From contig JAGXSV010000075.1 of assembly GCA_018333605.1 (NCBI GenBank), positions 23,202 to 87,201 of the forward strand: a DNA stretch of 64,000 bases, given 5' to 3'. Shown piece by piece: positions 3,578-48,941 of the stretch. The notes beneath the pieces were generated by a model, which worked only from the letters and a program-made list of their open reading frames with translations, had not been told where the DNA came from and searched no databases. This stretch comes from Hydrogenophaga sp. GTDB lineage: Bacteria > Pseudomonadota > Gammaproteobacteria > Burkholderiales > Burkholderiaceae_C. Position 1 is the stretch's first letter, and each line of letters begins with the position of its first letter. The position numbers and the translations under genes were made by a program.

Positions 3578-6349
3578 ATGTTGTCCGCCCCGCTCGTCAT
3601 TGGCGTCTCGTTTGCCTACCTGTTGCTGCTGTTTGCGGTGGCCTATTTTGGCGACTGGCGGGCGGCTCAAGGGCGCTCGATCATTGCCAGCCCGTGGGTG
3701 TATGCCTTGTCGATGGCGGTGTATTGCACCGCCTGGACCTACTTTGGCAGCGTGGGCCGCGCGGCCAATTCCGGGGTGTGGTTCCTGCCGATCTACCTGG
3801 GCCCCATGCTGGCCATGATTTTGGCCTGGATGGTGGTGCGCAAGATGATCCGCATCGCCAAGACCTACCGCATCACCTCCATTGCCGACTTCATTGCCAG
3901 CCGTTACGGCAAGAGCCCGACCCTGGCCGGTCTGGTGACGCTGATCACGGTGGTGGGCATCGTGCCCTACATTGCATTGCAGCTCAAAGCCATTGCCAGC
4001 GGCTACGCGGTGCTCACCTCACCCCTGGGCCAGCCCGCGGTGCAAAGCGCCGACTGGTGGAGCGACAGCACGCTGTATGTGGCGCTGGCACTGGCGGGCT
4101 TCACAATCGTCTTTGGTGCCCGCCACCTGGACAGCACCGAGCGCCACGAGGGCATGGTGGCGGCGATTGCGTTCGAGTCGGTGGTGAAGCTGGTGGCGTT
4201 CATGGCCGTGGGCCTGTTTGTGAGCTTTGGCCTGTTTGCCAGCCCAGCCGCTTTGTTTGAGCAGGCCCACGCCGTGGAAGCGCTGCGCAACCTGCTGCAG
4301 TTTGGGCAGGGCCAACCTTTTCCCTACGCACAGTGGCTGGGCCTGACGCTGCTGGCCATGCTGTCGGTCATTTTTCTGCCGCGGCAATTTCAGGTGATGG
4401 TGGTGGAGAACGTGGACGAACAGCACCTGCGGCGCGCGGTGTGGGCGTTTCCGCTGTACCTGCTGCTGATCAACTTGTTTGTGCTGCCCATCGCCATTGG
4501 CGGCCTGCTGCATTTCGGCCCCGGTGTCATGGACCCGGAAACCTTCATCTTGTCGTTGCCGTTGTCACAGGGACAAAACGCTTTGGCCCTGTTTGCCTTT
4601 GTGGGTGGGTTGTCGGCGGCCACCGGCATGGTGATCGTGGAAGCCATCGCGGTGTCCACCATGGTGTGCAACGATCTGGTGATGCCCATTTTGCTGCGCA
4701 TGCGGCGCTTCGGCGCGCGCGCCAGTGGTGATTTGACGGGCCTGCTGCTGGCTATTCGCCGCTTGGCCATTTTGGGCATTTTGTTGTTGGGCTACCTGTA
4801 CTTTCACCTGGCTGGCGAGGCCTACGCACTGGTCAGCATCGGGCTGATCAGCTTTGCCGCCGTGGCGCAGTTTGCGCCAGCCATGCTGGGGGGCATGTAC
4901 TGGAAGGGTGGCACACGCCACGGCGCGCTCACCGGTCTGTTGCTCGGCTTTGCGTTTTGGGTCTATACCTTGATGCTGCCCTCGCTGGCCAAGTCGGGCT
5001 GGCTGGCAGCCGACTTTCTGGAGCATGGGCCCTGGGGTCTGGTCTGGCTCAAGCCCGAAGCCTTTCTGGGTTTGGTGGGCTTGGACAATCTGAGCCATTC
5101 GCTGTTCTGGAGCTTGCTGGCCAACGTGGGCGGCTACGTCGGCGTGTCGCTGTGGCGCGCGCCTTCGGCCCGCGAAACCAGCCAGGCGTTGTTGTTTGTG
5201 GACGTGTTCAATCGCAAGGCCGGTGCGCGGCCGGTGTTCTGGCAGGGCCGCGCCAAGGTGTCGGCGCTGCTGCCGCTGGCGGGCCGGTTTCTGGGGGCCG
5301 AGCAGGCACAACGCCTGTTTGCCGACTACGCGCGCCGTGTGGGGGTGGCGGGCATTGACGCCATACCCGCAGATGCCCGCCTGGTGCAGTTTGTTGAAAC
5401 CGAACTGACGGGTGCGATTGGCAGCGCGTCCGCACGGGTCATGGTGGCTTCGGTGGTGGAGGAAGAGCCTCTGGATCTGGACGATGTGATGCGCATCCTG
5501 GACGAAGCTTCCCAGTTGCGTGCCTATTCCCATGCGCTGGAAGAAAAGTCGCAGTCGCTGGAGCGGGCCACCGCCGAATTGCGTGAGGCCAATGAAAAAC
5601 TGAAGAGTCTGGACCGCATGAAGGACGATTTCATGTCCTCGGTCACCCACGAATTGCGCACACCCTTGACTTCGATCAGGGCGCTCTCGGAGTTGATGCG
5701 CGACGATAGCGACATGGATCTGGCGCAGCGCCAGCAGTTTCTGGGCATCATCGTGGTGGAAGCTGAACGGCTGAGCCGGTTGGTGAGCCAGGTGCTGGAC
5801 ATGGCCAAAATTGAAGCCGGGCACGCCGAGTGGCACAACACCGAGGTGGACATGCGCGAGTTGCTGGAACAAGCCGCTGCCACCATGGGGGAAACCTGCC
5901 GGGAGCGCGGCGTGGCGTTGCAACTGGAGTTGCCCGCCATGGTGCGCCCGCTGTGGGCCGACGCGGACCGGATCACCCAGGTGGTGCTGAACCTGCTGTC
6001 CAACGCGGCCAAATACGCGCCGCGCGGCGCGGGGCGGGTGCAGATGCGCTTGAATGACGAGACGGATGGCATCACGGTGGAGGTTCAGGACAACGGACCG
6101 GGCCTTGCGCAGGATCAGCAGGCGATAGTGTTTGAGAAATTTCGTCAGGTGACGGGCGACGATCATTACCGCCCAGGCGGCACGGGTCTGGGCTTACCCA
6201 TCAGCCGCCAGATCGTGGAGCATTTTGGCGGGCACATGTGGCTGCGGTCGAGCGCTGGGCAGGGCGCTGTATTTGGTTTCTTCTTGCCGCGACGCAACAC
6301 CGGCACTGAAGGCCAGGTGAACGGCGCGTCTGACACACCAGCGACTTGA
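3578..6349 (+). CDS. Hybrid sensor: N-terminal sodium:solute symporter (SLC5) domain fused to a HisKA/HATPase histidine kinase (CbrA/CrbS-like)
   Basis: 923 aa; multi-TM N-terminus with SSS-like helices; H-box SSVTHELRTPLTSIRAL; HATPase boxes NLLSNAAKYAP, DNGPGL, GTGLGLPIS. Confidence 0.9.
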   Translation: MLSAPLVIGVSFAYLLLLFAVAYFGDWRAAQGRSIIASPWVYALSMAVYCTAWTYFGSVGRAANSGVWFLPIYLGPMLAMILAWMVVRKMIRIAKTYRITSIADFIASRYGKSPTLAGLVTLITVVGIVPYIALQLKAIASGYAVLTSPLGQPAVQSADWWSDSTLYVALALAGFTIVFGARHLDSTERHEGMVAAIAFESVVKLVAFMAVGLFVSFGLFASPAALFEQAHAVEALRNLLQFGQGQPFPYAQWLGLTLLAMLSVIFLPRQFQVMVVENVDEQHLRRAVWAFPLYLLLINLFVLPIAIGGLLHFGPGVMDPETFILSLPLSQGQNALALFAFVGGLSAATGMVIVEAIAVSTMVCNDLVMPILLRMRRFGARASGDLTGLLLAIRRLAILGILLLGYLYFHLAGEAYALVSIGLISFAAVAQFAPAMLGGMYWKGGTRHGALTGLLLGFAFWVYTLMLPSLAKSGWLAADFLEHGPWGLVWLKPEAFLGLVGLDNLSHSLFWSLLANVGGYVGVSLWRAPSARETSQALLFVDVFNRKAGARPVFWQGRAKVSALLPLAGRFLGAEQAQRLFADYARRVGVAGIDAIPADARLVQFVETELTGAIGSASARVMVASVVEEEPLDLDDVMRILDEASQLRAYSHALEEKSQSLERATAELREANEKLKSLDRMKDDFMSSVTHELRTPLTSIRALSELMRDDSDMDLAQRQQFLGIIVVEAERLSRLVSQVLDMAKIEAGHAEWHNTEVDMRELLEQAAATMGETCRERGVALQLELPAMVRPLWADADRITQVVLNLLSNAAKYAPRGAGRVQMRLNDETDGITVEVQDNGPGLAQDQQAIVFEKFRQVTGDDHYRPGGTGLGLPISRQIVEHFGGHMWLRSSAGQGAVFGFFLPRRNTGTEGQVNGASDTPAT

Positions 6350-6396: not shown

Positions 6397-6771
6397 ATGA
6401 GCCAGAAAATACTGATTGCAGACGACGAGCCCAACATCCTGATCTCCCTGGAGTTCTTGATGAAGCGTGAAGGCTACGATGTGGTGGTGGCGCGCGATGG
6501 GCAGGAGGCGGTGGACGCGGTTCTGCGTGAGCGCCCGGCACTCGTGTTGTTGGACGTGATGATGCCCGTCAAGACCGGGTTTGATGTGTGCCACGAGGTG
6601 CGCGCCAACGAGGCCGTGCGCGACACACTCATTGTCATGCTCACCGCCAAGGGGCGGGACACCGATGTGGCCAAGGGTTTGGCCCTGGGCGCCAACGCCT
6701 ACATGACCAAGCCGTTTTCAACCAAAGAACTGGTGCAAAAAGTGCGTGAGTTGCTGGGGTCGCCTGCATGA
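6397..6771 (+). CDS. Stand-alone receiver-domain response regulator (no output domain)
   Basis: MSQKILIADDEPNILISLEFLMKREGYDVVVARDGQEAV...LVLLDVMMP...MLTAKGR...GANAYMTKPFS; 124 aa. ATG 6397 with GAGGAG RBS. Confidence 0.9.
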   Translation: MSQKILIADDEPNILISLEFLMKREGYDVVVARDGQEAVDAVLRERPALVLLDVMMPVKTGFDVCHEVRANEAVRDTLIVMLTAKGRDTDVAKGLALGANAYMTKPFSTKELVQKVRELLGSPA

Positions 6772-8969
6772 GCGCCCAGCAAAAAACCGACCGTCGGCTG
6801 TGGTGGTTGCTGGGTGTGGCGGCCGTGCTGTCGGTGGCCTGGCTGCTGGCCACCCTGGGCCTGGTGGGCTCTACACTGGAGCCGACGGAGCGCGCGACGG
6901 TTTGGGGCCTGCTCGGCGACCGGCTGGCTCTGATTTCCCTGACCTGGGGCGCGGGCATGGCGGCCATTGCCTGGGGACTCAAGCGCTGGTTTGACCATTG
7001 GGTGACGCCTTCAGTGCAGCTGGCGGAAGAAGCCCAGGTGCTGCTGAAAACCGATGTGGTGCGCGAACTGCGGCCCAAAGGCAATGTGGAAACCCGCGTG
7101 CTGGCCGATCTGTTCAACCAACTGGTGGGCCAGCGCGAGGCGCTGCGGCGCGAGATGGACAGCAAGGTACAAGAGGCTGCGCAGGGGATTGAGCAGGAAA
7201 AAAGCCGTTTGGCGGCGCTGATGTCCGAACTGACGCAAAGCGTGGTGGTGTGTAACCTGGATGGCCGCGTGCTGCTGTACAACAACCGCGCCCGCATGCA
7301 GTTTCGTGCGCTCTCGCAGGCGCCCGGCGTGGCTGGTGGTGCCGAGCTGATCGGTCTGGGCCGGTCAATCTACAGCGTGTTTGACCGCAAGCTGGTGGCC
7401 CATGCGTTGGAAAACATTCAGCAGCGCATGCTGCGCGGGGCAGGGCAGCCGTCGGCGCAGTTCGTGACCACCACCGCAGCCGGGCAGCTGCTGAGGGTGC
7501 AAATGGCGCCTGTGCGCTCACCACAAGCCCAAGGCGCCGAGGCCGCAGCCGATCGCATGGAGCTGACCGGCTTCGTGCTGATGCTTGACAACATCACCAG
7601 CGACTTTGAAGCCGAGTCGGCCAAAGACCAGGTGCTGCACAGCCTGACCGAGGGCAGCCGCTCGGCGCTGGCCAACATGCAGGCCGCGATTGACATGCTG
7701 GACTACCCCGACCTGGAGCCCGCCATGCGCGAGCGTTTCCTGGGCGTGATCCGCGACGAAACGCGGTCACTGAGCCAACGCATTGGTGCGCTGGAAGCGG
7801 GTTCGGCCGACAGCCTGAAGACGCGCTGGCCGCTGGAAGACATGCTGGGTGCCGACCTGGTGAGCGCAGCTCTGCGCCGCATTGAGACCGTGACCAGTCT
7901 GCCCGCCTCGTCCATCGACGTGGATGGCTCGGTCTGGCTCAAGGTGGAGAGCTTTTCGCTGTTGCAGGCGCTGGTGTACCTGTCGGGGCGCCTGGCCGAC
8001 GAGTTCGAGGTGCGCTTTGTTCAGTTGCGACTGGGCAACGCCACGGGAAGCCCTGGCAAGGCCCAGCTGGACCTGATCTGGTCGGGTCAGGTCATGAGTA
8101 CCGAGACGGTGATGAGCTGGGAAATGGACGCCATGAAGGTGGGCAGTGAAACCACACGCTTGACGGTGCGCGATGTGGTGGAGCGCCACGGCGGCGCTTT
8201 CTGGTTTGAGCGCGAGCGTTCGCGACACCAGGCGTTTTTCCGTTTCCTGCTGCCGCTGGCCAACCCGCAGGAGCAGCTGGATTCGGCCGCGTTCGTCAAG
8301 AACGAAAGCCGTCCCGAGTACTACGACTTCGACCTTTTCAAGACCACCGAGCAGACGCGCACCCTGGACGACCGCCGACTCAGCGACCTGGCCTACACGG
8401 TGTTCGACACCGAGACCACCGGCCTGAACCCGTCGCAGGGCGACGAGATCATCCAGATTGGAGCGGCGCGCGTGGTCAACAACAAGCTGCTGCGCCAGGA
8501 ATGCTTTGAGCAACTGGTTGACCCGCGGCGCACGATTCCAGCGGCGTCCATACCCATTCACGGCATCCAGCCCGAGATGGTGCTGGGCCAGCCCACCATT
8601 GACCAGGTGTTGCCCGCGTTTCATGCCTTTGCGCAGGACACCGTGCTGGTGGCCCACAACGCCGCATTTGACATGCGCTTTTTGCAGCTGAAGGAGAAGC
8701 AGAGCGGGGTGGTGTTTGACCACCCGGTGCTCGACACGCTGCTGCTGTCGGCCCTGGTGCATCCCAACCAGGACTCGCACCGTCTGGAGGCCATCGCCGA
8801 GCGCTTCAATGTCACCATCATCGGCCGCCACACCGCCATGGGGGACGCCATGGTGACCGCCGAGGTGTTCCTGAAGCTCATTCCGCTGCTGGCCGAAAAA
8901 GGTATTCACACCTTGGGGCAGGCGCGTGAAGCAGCGCAGCAAACCTACTACGCCCGCTTGAAGTATTGA
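6768..8969 (+). CDS. Membrane-anchored HAMP/PAS/degenerate histidine-kinase protein fused to a C-terminal DEDDh 3'-5' exonuclease (DnaQ-like)
   Basis: 733 aa; two N-terminal TM segments; PAS-like region VVVCNLDGRVLLYNNRA; C-terminus has TVFDTETTGLNPSQGDEIIQIGAARV, VAHNAAFDMRFL and GRHTAMGDAMVT. ATGA overlap with the response regulator. Confidence 0.85.
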   Translation: MSAQQKTDRRLWWLLGVAAVLSVAWLLATLGLVGSTLEPTERATVWGLLGDRLALISLTWGAGMAAIAWGLKRWFDHWVTPSVQLAEEAQVLLKTDVVRELRPKGNVETRVLADLFNQLVGQREALRREMDSKVQEAAQGIEQEKSRLAALMSELTQSVVVCNLDGRVLLYNNRARMQFRALSQAPGVAGGAELIGLGRSIYSVFDRKLVAHALENIQQRMLRGAGQPSAQFVTTTAAGQLLRVQMAPVRSPQAQGAEAAADRMELTGFVLMLDNITSDFEAESAKDQVLHSLTEGSRSALANMQAAIDMLDYPDLEPAMRERFLGVIRDETRSLSQRIGALEAGSADSLKTRWPLEDMLGADLVSAALRRIETVTSLPASSIDVDGSVWLKVESFSLLQALVYLSGRLADEFEVRFVQLRLGNATGSPGKAQLDLIWSGQVMSTETVMSWEMDAMKVGSETTRLTVRDVVERHGGAFWFERERSRHQAFFRFLLPLANPQEQLDSAAFVKNESRPEYYDFDLFKTTEQTRTLDDRRLSDLAYTVFDTETTGLNPSQGDEIIQIGAARVVNNKLLRQECFEQLVDPRRTIPAASIPIHGIQPEMVLGQPTIDQVLPAFHAFAQDTVLVAHNAAFDMRFLQLKEKQSGVVFDHPVLDTLLLSALVHPNQDSHRLEAIAERFNVTIIGRHTAMGDAMVTAEVFLKLIPLLAEKGIHTLGQAREAAQQTYYARLKY

Positions 8970-9009: not shown

Positions 9010-10875
9010 TCAATGCCTGTAGCGTTGGGCCAGCACGCTTTGAAGCGACTGCACCACGGTGAAGGCATCCTTGAGCTGGCTGCGTTCGAAGTTGGACACG
9101 TCGGCCGGATTGAGGAAGCTGTCGGGTGACTCGGCGCGGCTAATCTGTCGGGCCTGGTGCTGGATGCGGGTGTAGGCGATAAATTCCAGGGCGTCGCGCA
9201 AGTCGCGCGCGCTTTGCTCGCTGATGGCGCCACCAGCCGCGGCGCTCGTCAGGCGGTCGTGGGTGTTCACCGCAGCGTCACCACCCGCCAGCGCATAGAT
9301 TCGGGCCAGGTCGACGATGGGCACCACGCCGGTGTGTTTGAGGTCGATGGTGCCCTTGTGCTCGCCGCTGCGAATGGTGGAGATGCCTTTGAACATGCCC
9401 AGCGGGGGCTGGTGTGTCAGTGCGTTGCCAACCATGTGCGCCAGGAACAGGGTGTTGCCCTGCGTGCGTTTGAGCACGTCGCCGCGCAGGTTGTCCAGCA
9501 GCTCGGATTTGCCGTGAATCGCGCGCAGGTCGAAAAACACGCAGGTCAGCATCAAGGCCTTCGGGTTGGGCTGGCTTGTCCAGCGAGCGAAATAGTCAGC
9601 CCAGCGCTTTTGGGGTTGGCGCCATGTGTCGGTCATGGCCATCATCTCGCCGGGGCAGTAAATGTAGCCGCAGGCGTCCAGGCCATCGCAGACAAACTGG
9701 GACAAGGCCTTGAAATAGGGGCCGTGAACGGCCTCGTCGTAGCGGTCGTCCAGCACCATGCAATTGTCCTGGTCTGACTTGGCCGTCTGTTCGTTGCGCG
9801 CCTGAGAGCCTGCCGCTACCCAGACGTAGTCGATCGGCGCCGGGCCCAGCTGCGCTTCACCCAGTTGCAGCAGCCGCGTGGTGATCGCATCGGTGATGGC
9901 CGTGATGATGTGGCCGGTGCTGTAGGCCGACGCTTCGGCCGCCGCCAGGCTCTGTTGCAGCCGCTTGATCTTGGTGCTGGCGCGCTGCAGGCCCTCAACC
10001 GTGCTTTGCTTGTAAATGTCCCCAGCCAGGTAAACGGCGGAGGTGCTGTGCTGTTCGGTCAGGTCGGTGGCGGTGATCATGCCCACGATACGCTGCCCAT
10101 CCAGCACCGGCACATGGTGGATGTTGTGTCGCGCCATCAGCAGCAGTGCGTCAAATGCCGGGTTTTGTACGTCGATGCTTAGGGGGGCCAGCGTGGCAAT
10201 GTCCATGATGGGGCGGGTGCTGTCCATGCCAGCGGCGATCACACGGTTGCGCAGGTCGCGGTCGGTGACCACGCCAAACAGGTGCTCCTGCTCCACGATC
10301 AAGACCGAAGACACCCTTTGCTCGCTCATGAGCTTTGCCGCGTCGCGGATGCTGGTGTGCGGCGGCAAGGTGATCGGGGCGCGCTTGATCAGGGCGCGCA
10401 CCGGCGTGGTCATGAGGTTGAGGGCGGGGTCTGTGCCGCCCGGCGCACCGCGTGGGCTGCTTTGCGTTGAAGTCGCGCCAGTGCTGCCACGGGGCAACAA
10501 CAGGCTCAGCGCAGGCAACTCGGTTTGCAGGGCATCAACCAGGGCATGGTCCATGCTCACCAGCGTGCAGTCGGTCCGGGCCTGGCACTCTTCGACACCG
10601 GCCACCCCATCAGCCTGCAAGCCAAACAGTTCGCCCGGGTACAAGGTGATCACGGGTTGCTGCTGCCCGTCCAGCAGGTGGACGCTACCCGTTACCAACC
10701 AGTGCAGCTGTTGCTGCAGTGCGGCTGGGGTACACGCTTGTGCACCAGCCGCCACCGGCTTTGCCTTGAGCGTGTCAGCCAACTTCTTTTGGGTGTCGTC
10801 GGACAGCAGGCCAAAGATACGGTGCATACGCAGGAGGTCGGCCAAAGGCGGTGTGTCGGAAGCGGTTTGTGTCAT
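9010..10875 (-). CDS. cNMP-binding-like / tandem CBS / DUF294 nucleotidyltransferase protein
   Basis: MTQTASDTPPLADLLRMHRIFGLLSDDTQKKL...; CBS region RVSSVLIVEQEHLFGVVTDRDLRNRV and HHVPVLDGQRIVGMITATDL; NTase motif GSQARNEQTAKSDQDN. Confidence 0.85.
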   Translation of the reverse strand: MTQTASDTPPLADLLRMHRIFGLLSDDTQKKLADTLKAKPVAAGAQACTPAALQQQLHWLVTGSVHLLDGQQQPVITLYPGELFGLQADGVAGVEECQARTDCTLVSMDHALVDALQTELPALSLLLPRGSTGATSTQSSPRGAPGGTDPALNLMTTPVRALIKRAPITLPPHTSIRDAAKLMSEQRVSSVLIVEQEHLFGVVTDRDLRNRVIAAGMDSTRPIMDIATLAPLSIDVQNPAFDALLLMARHNIHHVPVLDGQRIVGMITATDLTEQHSTSAVYLAGDIYKQSTVEGLQRASTKIKRLQQSLAAAEASAYSTGHIITAITDAITTRLLQLGEAQLGPAPIDYVWVAAGSQARNEQTAKSDQDNCMVLDDRYDEAVHGPYFKALSQFVCDGLDACGYIYCPGEMMAMTDTWRQPQKRWADYFARWTSQPNPKALMLTCVFFDLRAIHGKSELLDNLRGDVLKRTQGNTLFLAHMVGNALTHQPPLGMFKGISTIRSGEHKGTIDLKHTGVVPIVDLARIYALAGGDAAVNTHDRLTSAAAGGAISEQSARDLRDALEFIAYTRIQHQARQISRAESPDSFLNPADVSNFERSQLKDAFTVVQSLQSVLAQRYRH

Positions 10876-11016
10876 GGGTCGGGGTCCAGGTGGATTCAGC
10901 AAAACATGCTACACCGCACTGCAGCGGTCGCTGGTGGGTAAACCCTCACAGGGTTTGACCTGCGTCAGAGGGTTGGCGGGTGCGTCTGTAAGAACGCGGT
11001 AAGGTCCAGATTCAGA

Positions 11017-11921: not shown

Positions 11922-12002
11922 CGCCCACGGCGTTTCCATTGAACACGGGTTCCCGGCACAAGCCTAGCCCATGAAGTGCCCGCAAGGGCGAAGTTGACCG
12001 AG

Positions 12003-12272
12003 ATGAATACCGTGGACCTGACCGACAACCACCGCCGCTACTGGCGCAAGAACCTCCGCATCACGGGTGTGTTGCTGGCCATCTGGTTTGTGGTCACCTT
12101 CGTTGTGAGCTACTTTGCCCGCGAACTGAGTTTCAGTTTTTTTGGTTGGCCATTCAGCTTCTGGATGGGTGCCCAGGGCGCGTTGGTGGTGTACTGCCTG
12201 ATCATTGGTTTTTACGCTTGGTACATGAACCGCCTCGATATTGAGCACGGTGTTGACGAAATCGAGGACTGA
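12003..12272 (+). CDS. DUF4212 protein (small partner of SSS symporter)
   Basis: MNTVDLTDNHRRYWRKNLRITGVLLAIWFVVTFVVSYFARELSFSFFGWPFSFWMGAQGALVVYCLIIGFYAWYMNRLDIEHGVDE; directly upstream of the symporter. Confidence 0.9.
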   Translation: MNTVDLTDNHRRYWRKNLRITGVLLAIWFVVTFVVSYFARELSFSFFGWPFSFWMGAQGALVVYCLIIGFYAWYMNRLDIEHGVDEIED

Positions 12273-12276
12273 AGGC

Positions 12277-14394
12277 GTGGCCGGCAGCTCAGATTCGGGC
12301 TCCGCCAGCGGCAAAGGCGCGGCCAACCGGGCCTTCCGCCAGCAGCTCAACAAGGTCTACACGTGGTACACGGGCGGTTTCTTCGTCTTTGTGATCGCCC
12401 TGGCCATCTTGGAGCAGCTCGGGCTTTCGCGAGAATGGATCGGCTTCATCTTTTTGCTGGCCACCATCGGCTTGTACGCGGGCATCGGCATCATGAGCCG
12501 CACCACCGACGCGACCGAATACTACGTGGCCGGGCGGCGTGTACCAGCGGTCTACAACGGCATGGCCACCGGTGCCGACTGGATGTCGGCCGCCTCGTTC
12601 ATTGGCATGGCCGGTACGCTGTACCTCACGGGATACAGCGGCTTGGCTTTCATCATGGGCTGGACGGGGGGATACTGTCTGGTGGCGCTGTTGCTGGCGC
12701 CTTATCTACGCAAGTTTGGGCAGTTCACCATTCCCGACTTTCTGGGCGAGCGCTACGGTGGCAACATGCCGCGTTTCATCGGCATTTTCGCGGCCATTCT
12801 GTGCTCGTTTACTTATGTGGTGGCGCAGATTTATGGCGTCGGCCTGATCACGTCCCGCCTCACCGGCGTGGCCTTTGAGCTTGGCGTTTTTCTGGGCCTG
12901 GGCGGTATTTTGGTGTGCTCTTTCCTGGGCGGGATGCGAGCCGTCACCTGGACGCAGGTAGCCCAATACATCGTCCTGATCGTGGCCTACCTGATTCCCG
13001 TGGTGTGGCTGTCGGTCAAGCAGGCGAATTTCCCCTTGCCGCAGGTCATCTATGGTTATCAGCTGGAAAAAGTCACAGCCAAAGAAAAGCTGCTGACCAA
13101 CGACCCCAAAGAGCTGGAGGTTCGCGACATCTTCAGGGAGCGTGCCGCAGAGCTGACGGAAAAACTGAAAGACCCAGGCGCAGCACTGAAGGCGGATAAG
13201 GCTGCGGCTGAAGCCAAGCTGGCTGAGCTGAGGGCGGCCAACGTACCGTCCAGGACGGTATCCACGGCCGAACGAGCGGTGTCATCCTTGCCCAGGGACG
13301 AAGCATCAGCCAAAGCCGCCTGGACCCGAGACAAGGCTCTGGCCGAAACCAAATCCATGCCCCTGAATGGCATGCCGCCCCACGCGGCGCAGTTTGCAGG
13401 TGATCCGAAAGGCAACGCCCAGGAGAAAGCGGCCTACGACAACTCGCGCCGCAACTTCCTTGCTTTGATCTTTTGCCTGATGATCGGCACGGCAGCCCTG
13501 CCGCACATCTTGATGCGCTACTACACCGTGCCCAGCGTGAAGGAGGCCCGGCAGTCCGTCACCTGGTCGTTGTTTTTCATTTTTTTGCTTTATTTCACCG
13601 CGCCCGCCCTGGCTGTGCTGGTGAAGTATGAGGTGTTTCATGTGCTGATCGGCACGCCCATCGATCAGTTGCCCGCCTGGGTGGCGTCCTGGAACAAGGT
13701 CGATCCGAGCCTGATGTCGATCACAGACGTCAACAAGGACGGCATTTTGCAGCTCAATGAGATGAGCATCGGCGGCGACATCATCGTTCTGGCCACGGCC
13801 GAAATTGGTGGTCTCCCTTACGTCATATCGGGCCTGGTGGCTGCCGGTGGCCTGGCAGCGGCCTTGTCAACCGCCGACGGCTTGTTGCTGACGATCGCCA
13901 ACGCGTTATCGCACGATTTGTATTACAAAATGATCAACCCCAACGCTTCCACAGCCCGCCGCGTGACCATCTCCAAGGTGTTGTTGCTGATGGTGGCGCT
14001 GGTGGCGGCTTATGTGGCGGCGCAGAAGCCTGCCGATATTTTGTTTCTGGTCTCGGCCGCTTTTTCGTTTGCTGCGGCCGCATTTTTCCCCGCGTTGGTG
14101 CTGGGTATTTTCTGGAAGCGGGCCACCGGCATCGCTGCTTCGTTAGGCATGATCGCGGGCTTGGGTGTCACTTTCTATTACATGGTGACCACGCAGCCCT
14201 GGTTGCGAGACGTGTTTGGCGTGACCAAGCCCATAGAGCTGTGGTGGGGCATCCTGCCCATTTCGGCCGGGGTTTTTGGGGTTCCGCTGGGCTTTGCGGT
14301 GATCATTTTCATCAGCTGGGTGACGCCAGCGCCCAGCCGCAAGGTGCAGCAACTGGTGGAGCATGTGCGCTACCCCAGCCTGCGAGAGCTTTGA
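12277..14394 (+). CDS. Sodium:solute symporter, VC_2705-type (acetate-permease-like)
   Basis: SSS motifs TDATEYYVAGRRVPAVYNGMATGADWMSAASFIGMAG and GLVAAGGLAAALSTADGLLLTIANALSHDLY. Probable GTG start at 12277 just after the DUF4212 stop. Confidence 0.9.
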   Translation: MAGSSDSGSASGKGAANRAFRQQLNKVYTWYTGGFFVFVIALAILEQLGLSREWIGFIFLLATIGLYAGIGIMSRTTDATEYYVAGRRVPAVYNGMATGADWMSAASFIGMAGTLYLTGYSGLAFIMGWTGGYCLVALLLAPYLRKFGQFTIPDFLGERYGGNMPRFIGIFAAILCSFTYVVAQIYGVGLITSRLTGVAFELGVFLGLGGILVCSFLGGMRAVTWTQVAQYIVLIVAYLIPVVWLSVKQANFPLPQVIYGYQLEKVTAKEKLLTNDPKELEVRDIFRERAAELTEKLKDPGAALKADKAAAEAKLAELRAANVPSRTVSTAERAVSSLPRDEASAKAAWTRDKALAETKSMPLNGMPPHAAQFAGDPKGNAQEKAAYDNSRRNFLALIFCLMIGTAALPHILMRYYTVPSVKEARQSVTWSLFFIFLLYFTAPALAVLVKYEVFHVLIGTPIDQLPAWVASWNKVDPSLMSITDVNKDGILQLNEMSIGGDIIVLATAEIGGLPYVISGLVAAGGLAAALSTADGLLLTIANALSHDLYYKMINPNASTARRVTISKVLLLMVALVAAYVAAQKPADILFLVSAAFSFAAAAFFPALVLGIFWKRATGIAASLGMIAGLGVTFYYMVTTQPWLRDVFGVTKPIELWWGILPISAGVFGVPLGFAVIIFISWVTPAPSRKVQQLVEHVRYPSLREL

Positions 14395-48233: not shown

Positions 48234-48941
48234 ATGCGTCAAATCGTTCTTGACACCGAAACCACCGGCCTGTCTGCCGAAAACGGCGACCGGATCATTG
48301 AAATCGGCTGTGTGGAGCTGCTCAACCGCAAGCTCACCGGTAACAACCTGCATTTTTACGTCAACCCCGAGCGCGACAGCCACGAAGACGCGCTAAAAGT
48401 GCACGGAATAAGCAACGAATTTTTGCGCGACAAGCCTAAGTTTGGACAAATTGCCGACGAGTTGCTGGACTACCTGCGTGACGCTGAATTGATCATTCAC
48501 AACGCTCCGTTCGACATCAGCTTCCTGAATAAAGAGCTTGAGCGCCTGGGCCGTCCGCCATTGAAGACCATCATCGGTCAGGTGACAGACAGCCTGGTGA
48601 TGGCCAAGGAAATGTTCCCGGGCAAGCGCAATGGCCTGGACGCCTTGTGTGACCGACTCGGGGTAGACAACTCGGGTCGAACCTTGCACGGGGCCTTGCT
48701 CGATGCCGAGTTGCTGGCCGACGTCTACATCAATATGACCCGCGGCCAGGATGCATTGTTGATGGACCTGGAGACGTCGGTAGTCCAGGGCGGCGAGGTG
48801 CTGATGATCGACCTCAGTCGCATTGAATTGCCCGTGATCCTTGCCAGCGAGTTGGAAGCTCAGGCGCATGAAGACGTGTTGATCGACCTCGATAAAGCTT
48901 GCAAAGGAGAAGCGGTGTGGCGACAGATGCAAGTGGCTTGA
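48234..48941 (+). CDS. dnaQ: DNA polymerase III epsilon subunit
   Basis: MRQIVLDTETTGLSAENGDRIIEIGCVELLNRKLTGNNLHFYVNPER...IIHNAPFDISFLNKEL. Confidence 0.95.
   Translation: MRQIVLDTETTGLSAENGDRIIEIGCVELLNRKLTGNNLHFYVNPERDSHEDALKVHGISNEFLRDKPKFGQIADELLDYLRDAELIIHNAPFDISFLNKELERLGRPPLKTIIGQVTDSLVMAKEMFPGKRNGLDALCDRLGVDNSGRTLHGALLDAELLADVYINMTRGQDALLMDLETSVVQGGEVLMIDLSRIELPVILASELEAQAHEDVLIDLDKACKGEAVWRQMQVA

Follow-up and report, generated by a model that had tools for sequence, protein, structure and literature searches.

A predicted membrane exonuclease fused to a dead histidine kinase as candidate effector of a receiver-only response regulator

DivL from Caulobacter is a pseudo-histidine kinase that senses DivK~P by way of a dead DHp domain, and in some lineages the response regulator of this pair has been lost together with the DHp-CA module (PMC4211667). 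It was described as an exceptional case in which the flow from kinase to regulator is reversed, and the authors stated that the extent of this behavior in nature warrants further investigation (PMC4211667). A different precedent is PP_0353 from Pseudomonas putida. This stand-alone exonuclease of the RNase_T family is a target of the MxtR/ErdR (CrbS/R) system, it shares an operon with PP_0354, and its loss impairs growth on pyruvate (PMC9927547). The authors proposed mRNA as the substrate and could not explain the presence of an exonuclease in an acetate/pyruvate switch (PMC9927547). A connection between an exonuclease and CrbS/R is therefore already known from this protein (PMC9927547).

Here we examine a gene from Hydrogenophaga sp. 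that lies in a 64,000-nucleotide stretch of DNA (the window) and codes for a predicted fusion of a membrane-bound PAS and pseudo-histidine kinase region with a DEDDh exonuclease. It follows genes for a CrbS-like histidine kinase and for a response regulator (RR) that consists of a receiver domain only (Table 1). Our search of the accessible literature, a scope that leaves most subscription journals outside, found no description of the fusion, of its pseudokinase or of its link to an RR.

Table 1. Features of the locus (positions in the window)
Feature	Position	Strand	Remarks
CrbS-like histidine kinase	3578..6349	+	symporter-type N-terminus, intact HisKA and HATPase
Receiver-only RR	6397..6771	+	124 aa, no output domain; TGA overlaps ATG of the fusion (ATGA)
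PAS / pseudo-histidine kinase / DEDDh exonuclease fusion	6768..8969	+	733 aa
Fusion, TM helix 1	6792..6881	+	residues ~9-38; Kyte-Doolittle; helix in AlphaFold2 model
Fusion, TM helix 2	6921..6983	+	residues ~52-72; Kyte-Doolittle, AlphaFold2; runs into HAMP-like coiled region
Fusion, PAS domain	7230..7592	+	residues 155-275; sub-threshold PAS_4 match, WalK PAS matches, AlphaFold2 model
Fusion, pseudo-DHp two-helix domain, putative RR docking site	7596..7817	+	residues 277-350; model, hhalign, RR co-occurrence
Fusion, Glu295 codon (GAG) at the phospho-acceptor His position	7650..7652	+	hhalign, translation
Fusion, degenerate ATPase-like (CA) domain	7836..8258	+	residues 357-497; N/G boxes lost; AlphaFold2, hhalign
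Fusion, conserved linker motif RPEYYDFDLF	8310..8339	+	residues 515-524; in and beside a predicted disordered stretch
Fusion, predicted DEDDh 3'-5' exonuclease domain	8391..8897	+	residues 542-710; RNase_T match, fold, catalytic residues
cNMP-binding / CBS / DUF294 putative nucleotidyltransferase	9010..10902	-	convergent to the fusion; neighbor conserved across the family
98-aa membrane ORF	11976..12272		precedes the symporter
Sodium:solute symporter	12241..14394	+	ActP-like by context; SSF match E = 3e-56

Architecture of the fusion and its genomic context

An AlphaFold2 model of the fusion (mean pLDDT 84, pTM 0.38) contains the TM helices, a PAS domain, a two-helix DHp domain, an ATPase-like domain and the exonuclease, with a disordered linker at residues 502-520. 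The individual folds are well supported by this model; because of the low pTM, their relative arrangement is uncertain. The original prediction of two TM segments followed by a HAMP/PAS-like region agrees with this model, with Kyte-Doolittle analysis and with profile matches to VicK and WalK, and HAMP-containing receptors are among the matches of the family profile. The loop between the TM helices spans only ~15-20 residues, and therefore leaves little room for an external sensor. The linker motif is strongly conserved across the family despite the low confidence of the model in this region, and it is retained after loss of the kinase module. It may serve as a latch on the exonuclease or as a partner-binding motif.

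Full-length fusions occur in most searched genomes of the genus, where Hydrogenophaga records encode proteins 88-91% identical to that of the window, and also at the levels of order, class and phylum. Members come from Beta-, Gamma- and Alphaproteobacteria, from Desulfuromonadales and from other groups, and the named records include Rhodobacter capsulatus, Halomonas, Azoarcus and Desulfuromonas. Since independent isolates and MAGs repeatedly contain the fusion at full length, we can eliminate a sequencing or fusion artefact. Single MAGs labelled Acidobacteriota, Nitrospirota and Chloroflexota also contain the fusion, and these labels may be binning errors. Two Bacteroidota-labelled MAGs (Vicingus and Flavobacteriales; L112, 9001-10839, and L115, 9001-10851) carry a family exonuclease beside a DUF294 gene. 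Their exonuclease proteins lack the DHp, and the ATPase part is nearly unrecognizable; this reflects either transfer or binning error.

The whole fusion protein has no Pfam match to HisKA or HATPase_c at E ≤ 1; the kinase-like fragment alone gave a HisKA match in 10 of 59 relatives (best E = 1.4e-4). By contrast with these weak signals, profile and structure comparisons argue for the DHp and CA fold of a histidine kinase. Among solved structures, the family profile finds the VicK sensor kinase (4i5s) at model positions 55-478 (E = 6e-27), which covers roughly HAMP-PAS-DHp-CA, and DivL (4q20) with E = 1e-7. Foldseek with the full-length AlphaFold2 model places 9a5d and the VicK structure 4i5s at the top of the list and also finds HK853; the VIA list for the same model is occupied by the exonuclease domain. 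Alignment of the fusion with the CrbS-like kinase of the window by hhalign (probability 97) aligns Glu295 precisely with the phospho-acceptor His and shows other residues in place of the N, G1 and G2 boxes. The domain assignment suggested with the original prediction thus returned a DHp, a CA and an exonuclease fold, and the predicted exchange of His for Glu as well as the lack of recognizable HATPase boxes stood. The two findings that would have spoken against a pseudokinase, absence of a HisKA-like fold or a correctly placed His elsewhere, did not occur.

None of the 126 DHp-bearing family members has a His at site 295. The site is occupied by Glu (82 members), Asp (21), Pro (8), Gln (6) or others, and the acidic replacement that had been predicted from the one sequence is therefore common (103/126) without being invariant. 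This predominance looks like a preference for a constant negative charge, and it is suggestive of Glu295 acting as a phosphomimic, a role to be read against the Pro, Gln and other residues that also occur at the site. Because His is absent from all 126 DHps and the exonuclease residues are kept in all 158 family members (see below), we regard the fusion as a conserved design and not as the product of chance decay.

The C-terminal part of the protein matches RNase_T (PF00929) at residues 545-701 with E = 8e-36. The motifs DTETTG, HNAAFD and RHTAMGD start at residues 547, 630 and 687, and the five DEDDh residues (D547, E549, D635, H688 and D693) are intact in 158/158 members, as anticipated for this protein by the original prediction. 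Superposition on PolC (9qpc) in VIA gave a Z score of 25.3 with an rmsd of 1.7 over 192 residues. By its catalytic residues and its fold, the domain is thus a predicted 3'-5' exonuclease of the DEDDh type. The nearest solved relatives are of the DNA proofreading type (PolC, DnaQ epsilon and DinG) and act on DNA ends. We can exclude that the fusion is the replicative epsilon subunit, since a separate normal DnaQ-type gene is found at 48234-48941. An anti-phage reading was also rejected, as PADLOC yielded only generic DEDDh and candidate PDC-S48 models, with weak matches for the neighbors.

The adjacent CrbS-like kinase matches HisKA (3e-18) and HATPase_c (2e-27), and its N-terminal part matches the solved structure 10ed, annotated as histidine kinase, with E = 9e-101. 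This N-terminal region (3578-5377) has no Pfam SSF match, which was found in 2 of 8 relatives. With a symporter-type N-terminus followed by HisKA and HATPase, the predicted protein fits the architecture of CrbS. A DNA-binding output of the CrbR type is absent from the adjacent RR, the only regulator to which this statement refers. A PEP synthase gene lies upstream of the kinase, and the conserved gene context of the family is that of acetate/pyruvate metabolism.

Of the loci with enough context, 45/61 kinase-bearing and 11/11 kinase-less ones have a DUF294 nucleotidyltransferase-like gene close to the exonuclease. The pair of exonuclease and nucleotidyltransferase looks like the conserved core of the locus, judging from these gene neighborhoods, and one enzyme might reverse the work of the other on a 3' end. 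We take PP_0354 to be a DUF294-type protein as well.

Co-occurrence of the response regulator and the DHp domain

The RR family appears competent as a receiver: D53, T/S83 and K105 are each present in 123/123 sequences. A median of only four residues extends beyond the receiver. Since the protein seems competent but lacks an output domain, it must act through protein binding. If the dead DHp were its docking site, the RR would be expected to disappear together with the DHp. We examined this co-occurrence in 158 members with enough upstream sequence, of which 126 contain a DHp and 24 do not; eight members with a decayed DHp were set aside. The gene immediately upstream codes for an RR in 112/126 members with DHp versus 1/24 without. 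The corresponding Fisher test (p = 2e-16) takes no account of kinship and is not to be cited by itself. For phylogenetically independent pairs we used a tree built from the PAS and exonuclease columns only, because the exonuclease alone gave too few supported pairs. Eight independent supported pairs under strict scoring contained 5.4 concordant and no discordant cases, a sign test that by itself stays above 0.05 (median p 0.06). When decayed DHps were scored as lost, 12 pairs contained 7.2 concordant and again no discordant cases (median p 0.016).

Several lineages separate the DHp from the CA domain. Two members (L194, L195) have lost the DHp alone, and in four others (L185-L188) the DHp signal is lost; all six keep the ATPase fold and have no RR. 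Together with L105, these members retain CA scores of 52-80 bits in the absence of DHp and RR, which shows that the RR tracks the DHp and not the CA domain. All 12 Rhodobacteraceae-type genomes encode the CrbS kinase, yet an exonuclease-adjacent RR occurs in 3/3 with a DHp (that of G897 scores weakly) and in 0/9 without. The three RRs are 70-74% identical to the R. capsulatus RR. This distribution indicates that the RR, rather than the CrbS kinase, follows the DHp.

The exceptions are 14 of the 126 DHp-bearing members without an adjacent RR; one locus (L039) that has no DHp-CA and keeps RR and CrbS; and two (L123, L184) with weak DHp scores and an RR. Among five genomes with DHp and no adjacent RR that were searched further, four (G105, G053, G389, G519) encode a close RR elsewhere (59-63%), and none was found anywhere in the fifth (G534). 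No close RR turned up elsewhere in G292, G172 and G043, the three genomes in which the DHp has decayed.

An extra receiver gene adjoins CrbS in the Rhodobacteraceae-type genomes (G804, G895, G650, G713, G680, G807, G873, G878, G780, G939, G841, G897). This receiver is ~40% identical to the exonuclease-adjacent RR, and its position suggests a branched pathway with two regulators.

The kinship and conservation of the DHp point in the same direction as its distribution. In 11/11 genomes searched, with up to ~100 candidates per genome, the CrbS-like kinase ranked closest to the pseudokinase after the pseudokinase itself. This relationship suggests that the pseudokinase module began as a copy of the kinase acting on the RR and then decayed, so that it plausibly retained the docking surface of CrbS. 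R298 and E331 are each conserved in 47/48 DHps that occur with an RR, versus 7/13 (R298) and 6/13 (E331) without. Residue covariation between RR and fusion (MIp, 111 pairs, Neff 77) revealed no enrichment at the DHp, in a set that is too small and dominated by phylogeny.

A proposed mechanism and its alternatives

Based on these observations, we propose that the fusion acts as the output of a two-component pathway of the acetate/pyruvate type, which would read a signal of this kind. The transporter-like CrbS kinase, live by its sequence, would phosphorylate the RR. RR~P may then dock on the DHp helices of the pseudokinase, as suggested by their co-loss, by the conservation of the DHp and by its kinship to the CrbS kinase core. 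Docking, together with a signal from the PAS domain, could alter the conformation in which the tethered DEDDh exonuclease is held, and so turn cleavage of nucleic-acid 3' ends at the membrane either on or off. RNA 3' ends and single-stranded DNA ends are candidate substrates. Small signalling oligonucleotides, named as possible substrates in the original prediction, are neither favored nor disfavored by our analysis. The dead kinase would thus serve as a receptor for the RR, with the flow from kinase to regulator reversed as in DivL-DivK and with an enzymatic output fused on. We estimate the probability that CrbS phosphorylates the RR and that the RR gates the exonuclease through the dead DHp at roughly two in three. 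The broader proposition, that this is a widespread class of output in which RR~P, by binding to an inactive paralogue of its cognate kinase, directly gates a fused membrane exonuclease and thereby links a carbon-source sensor to nucleic-acid turnover without a transcription factor, we favor only slightly. The regulatory pseudokinase and membrane-tethered nuclease of the original prediction are supported by sequence, fold and conservation; the prediction treated the kinase part as a self-contained sensor, however, and overlooked the likely input, the RR.

The best surviving alternative, albeit an unlikely one, is that sensing is in fact done by the PAS domain, with DHp-CA as no more than a dimerization and relay spacer to the exonuclease and the RR as an operon companion with a role of its own. 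Nine short members (L135, L143, L146, L147, L179-L183) run from PAS through the linker directly to the exonuclease, and the motif RPExYDFDLF is recognizable in those members without kinase module that were examined. The PAS domain can therefore evidently couple to the nuclease alone. Left unexplained by this idea are the absence of the RR from genomes that have lost the DHp but still have CrbS, and the erosion of R298 and E331 in RR-less lineages.

We consider it less probable still that the dead kinase heterodimerizes with, or modulates, the live CrbS-like kinase (cf. RetS-GacS), with the exonuclease as passenger or separate output. The close kinship of the pseudokinase core to CrbS would be accounted for, as would the adjacency of the two genes in many lineages. 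However, CrbS persists in the Rhodobacteraceae-type genomes regardless of the DHp while the adjacent RR follows it, and the exonuclease active site is intact in every member, which also speaks against this reading. Finally, an ordinary nuclease for proofreading, repair or phage defense, anchored in the membrane and carrying a kinase remnant without function, would fit the similarity to PolC, DnaQ and DinG and the PADLOC models, but is very improbable, since a remnant would not keep its DHp core conserved in different phyla, a DnaQ-type exonuclease is encoded separately, and the conserved context is acetate/pyruvate metabolism and not replication or defense.

Comparison with known systems

In its parts the fusion resembles several known proteins. 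It shares fold and HAMP-PAS-DHp-CA order with sensor kinases of the WalK/VicK type, but has lost the phospho-acceptor His and the ATP-binding boxes and gained a C-terminal exonuclease. This exonuclease has the fold and active site of the PolC/DnaQ/DinG-type enzymes, which are joined to a polymerase or helicase and not to a membrane pseudokinase. Like PP_0353, the fusion is an RNase_T-family exonuclease tied to a CrbS/R-type system, whereas for PP_0353, compared here by its description, only the RNase_T domain is published, with no PAS domain, pseudokinase or receiver-only RR. An RR-gated fusion would provide a testable reason for an exonuclease within the acetate/pyruvate switch.

The closest functional analogy is DivL, in the sense of a protein that may work alike, not of an orthologue. 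Both proteins combine PAS, DHp and CA domains, both have lost the phospho-acceptor His, and both go with a receiver-only RR that in some lineages is lost together with the DHp. By its sequence, the fusion thus fits the DivL-type pattern of a dead DHp-CA module and a receiver-only RR that co-occurs with the DHp. DivL differs in having a Tyr at the site and in acting on a separate protein, CckA; the fusion usually has Glu or Asp at this position, carries its predicted DEDDh exonuclease output on the same chain, and probably belongs to an acetate-switch-type pathway. If our reading is true, reversed flow as in DivL would have a second, widespread representative in this family, whose members come from Hydrogenophaga, Rhodobacter capsulatus, Halomonas and Desulfuromonadales, with an enzyme as the direct output.
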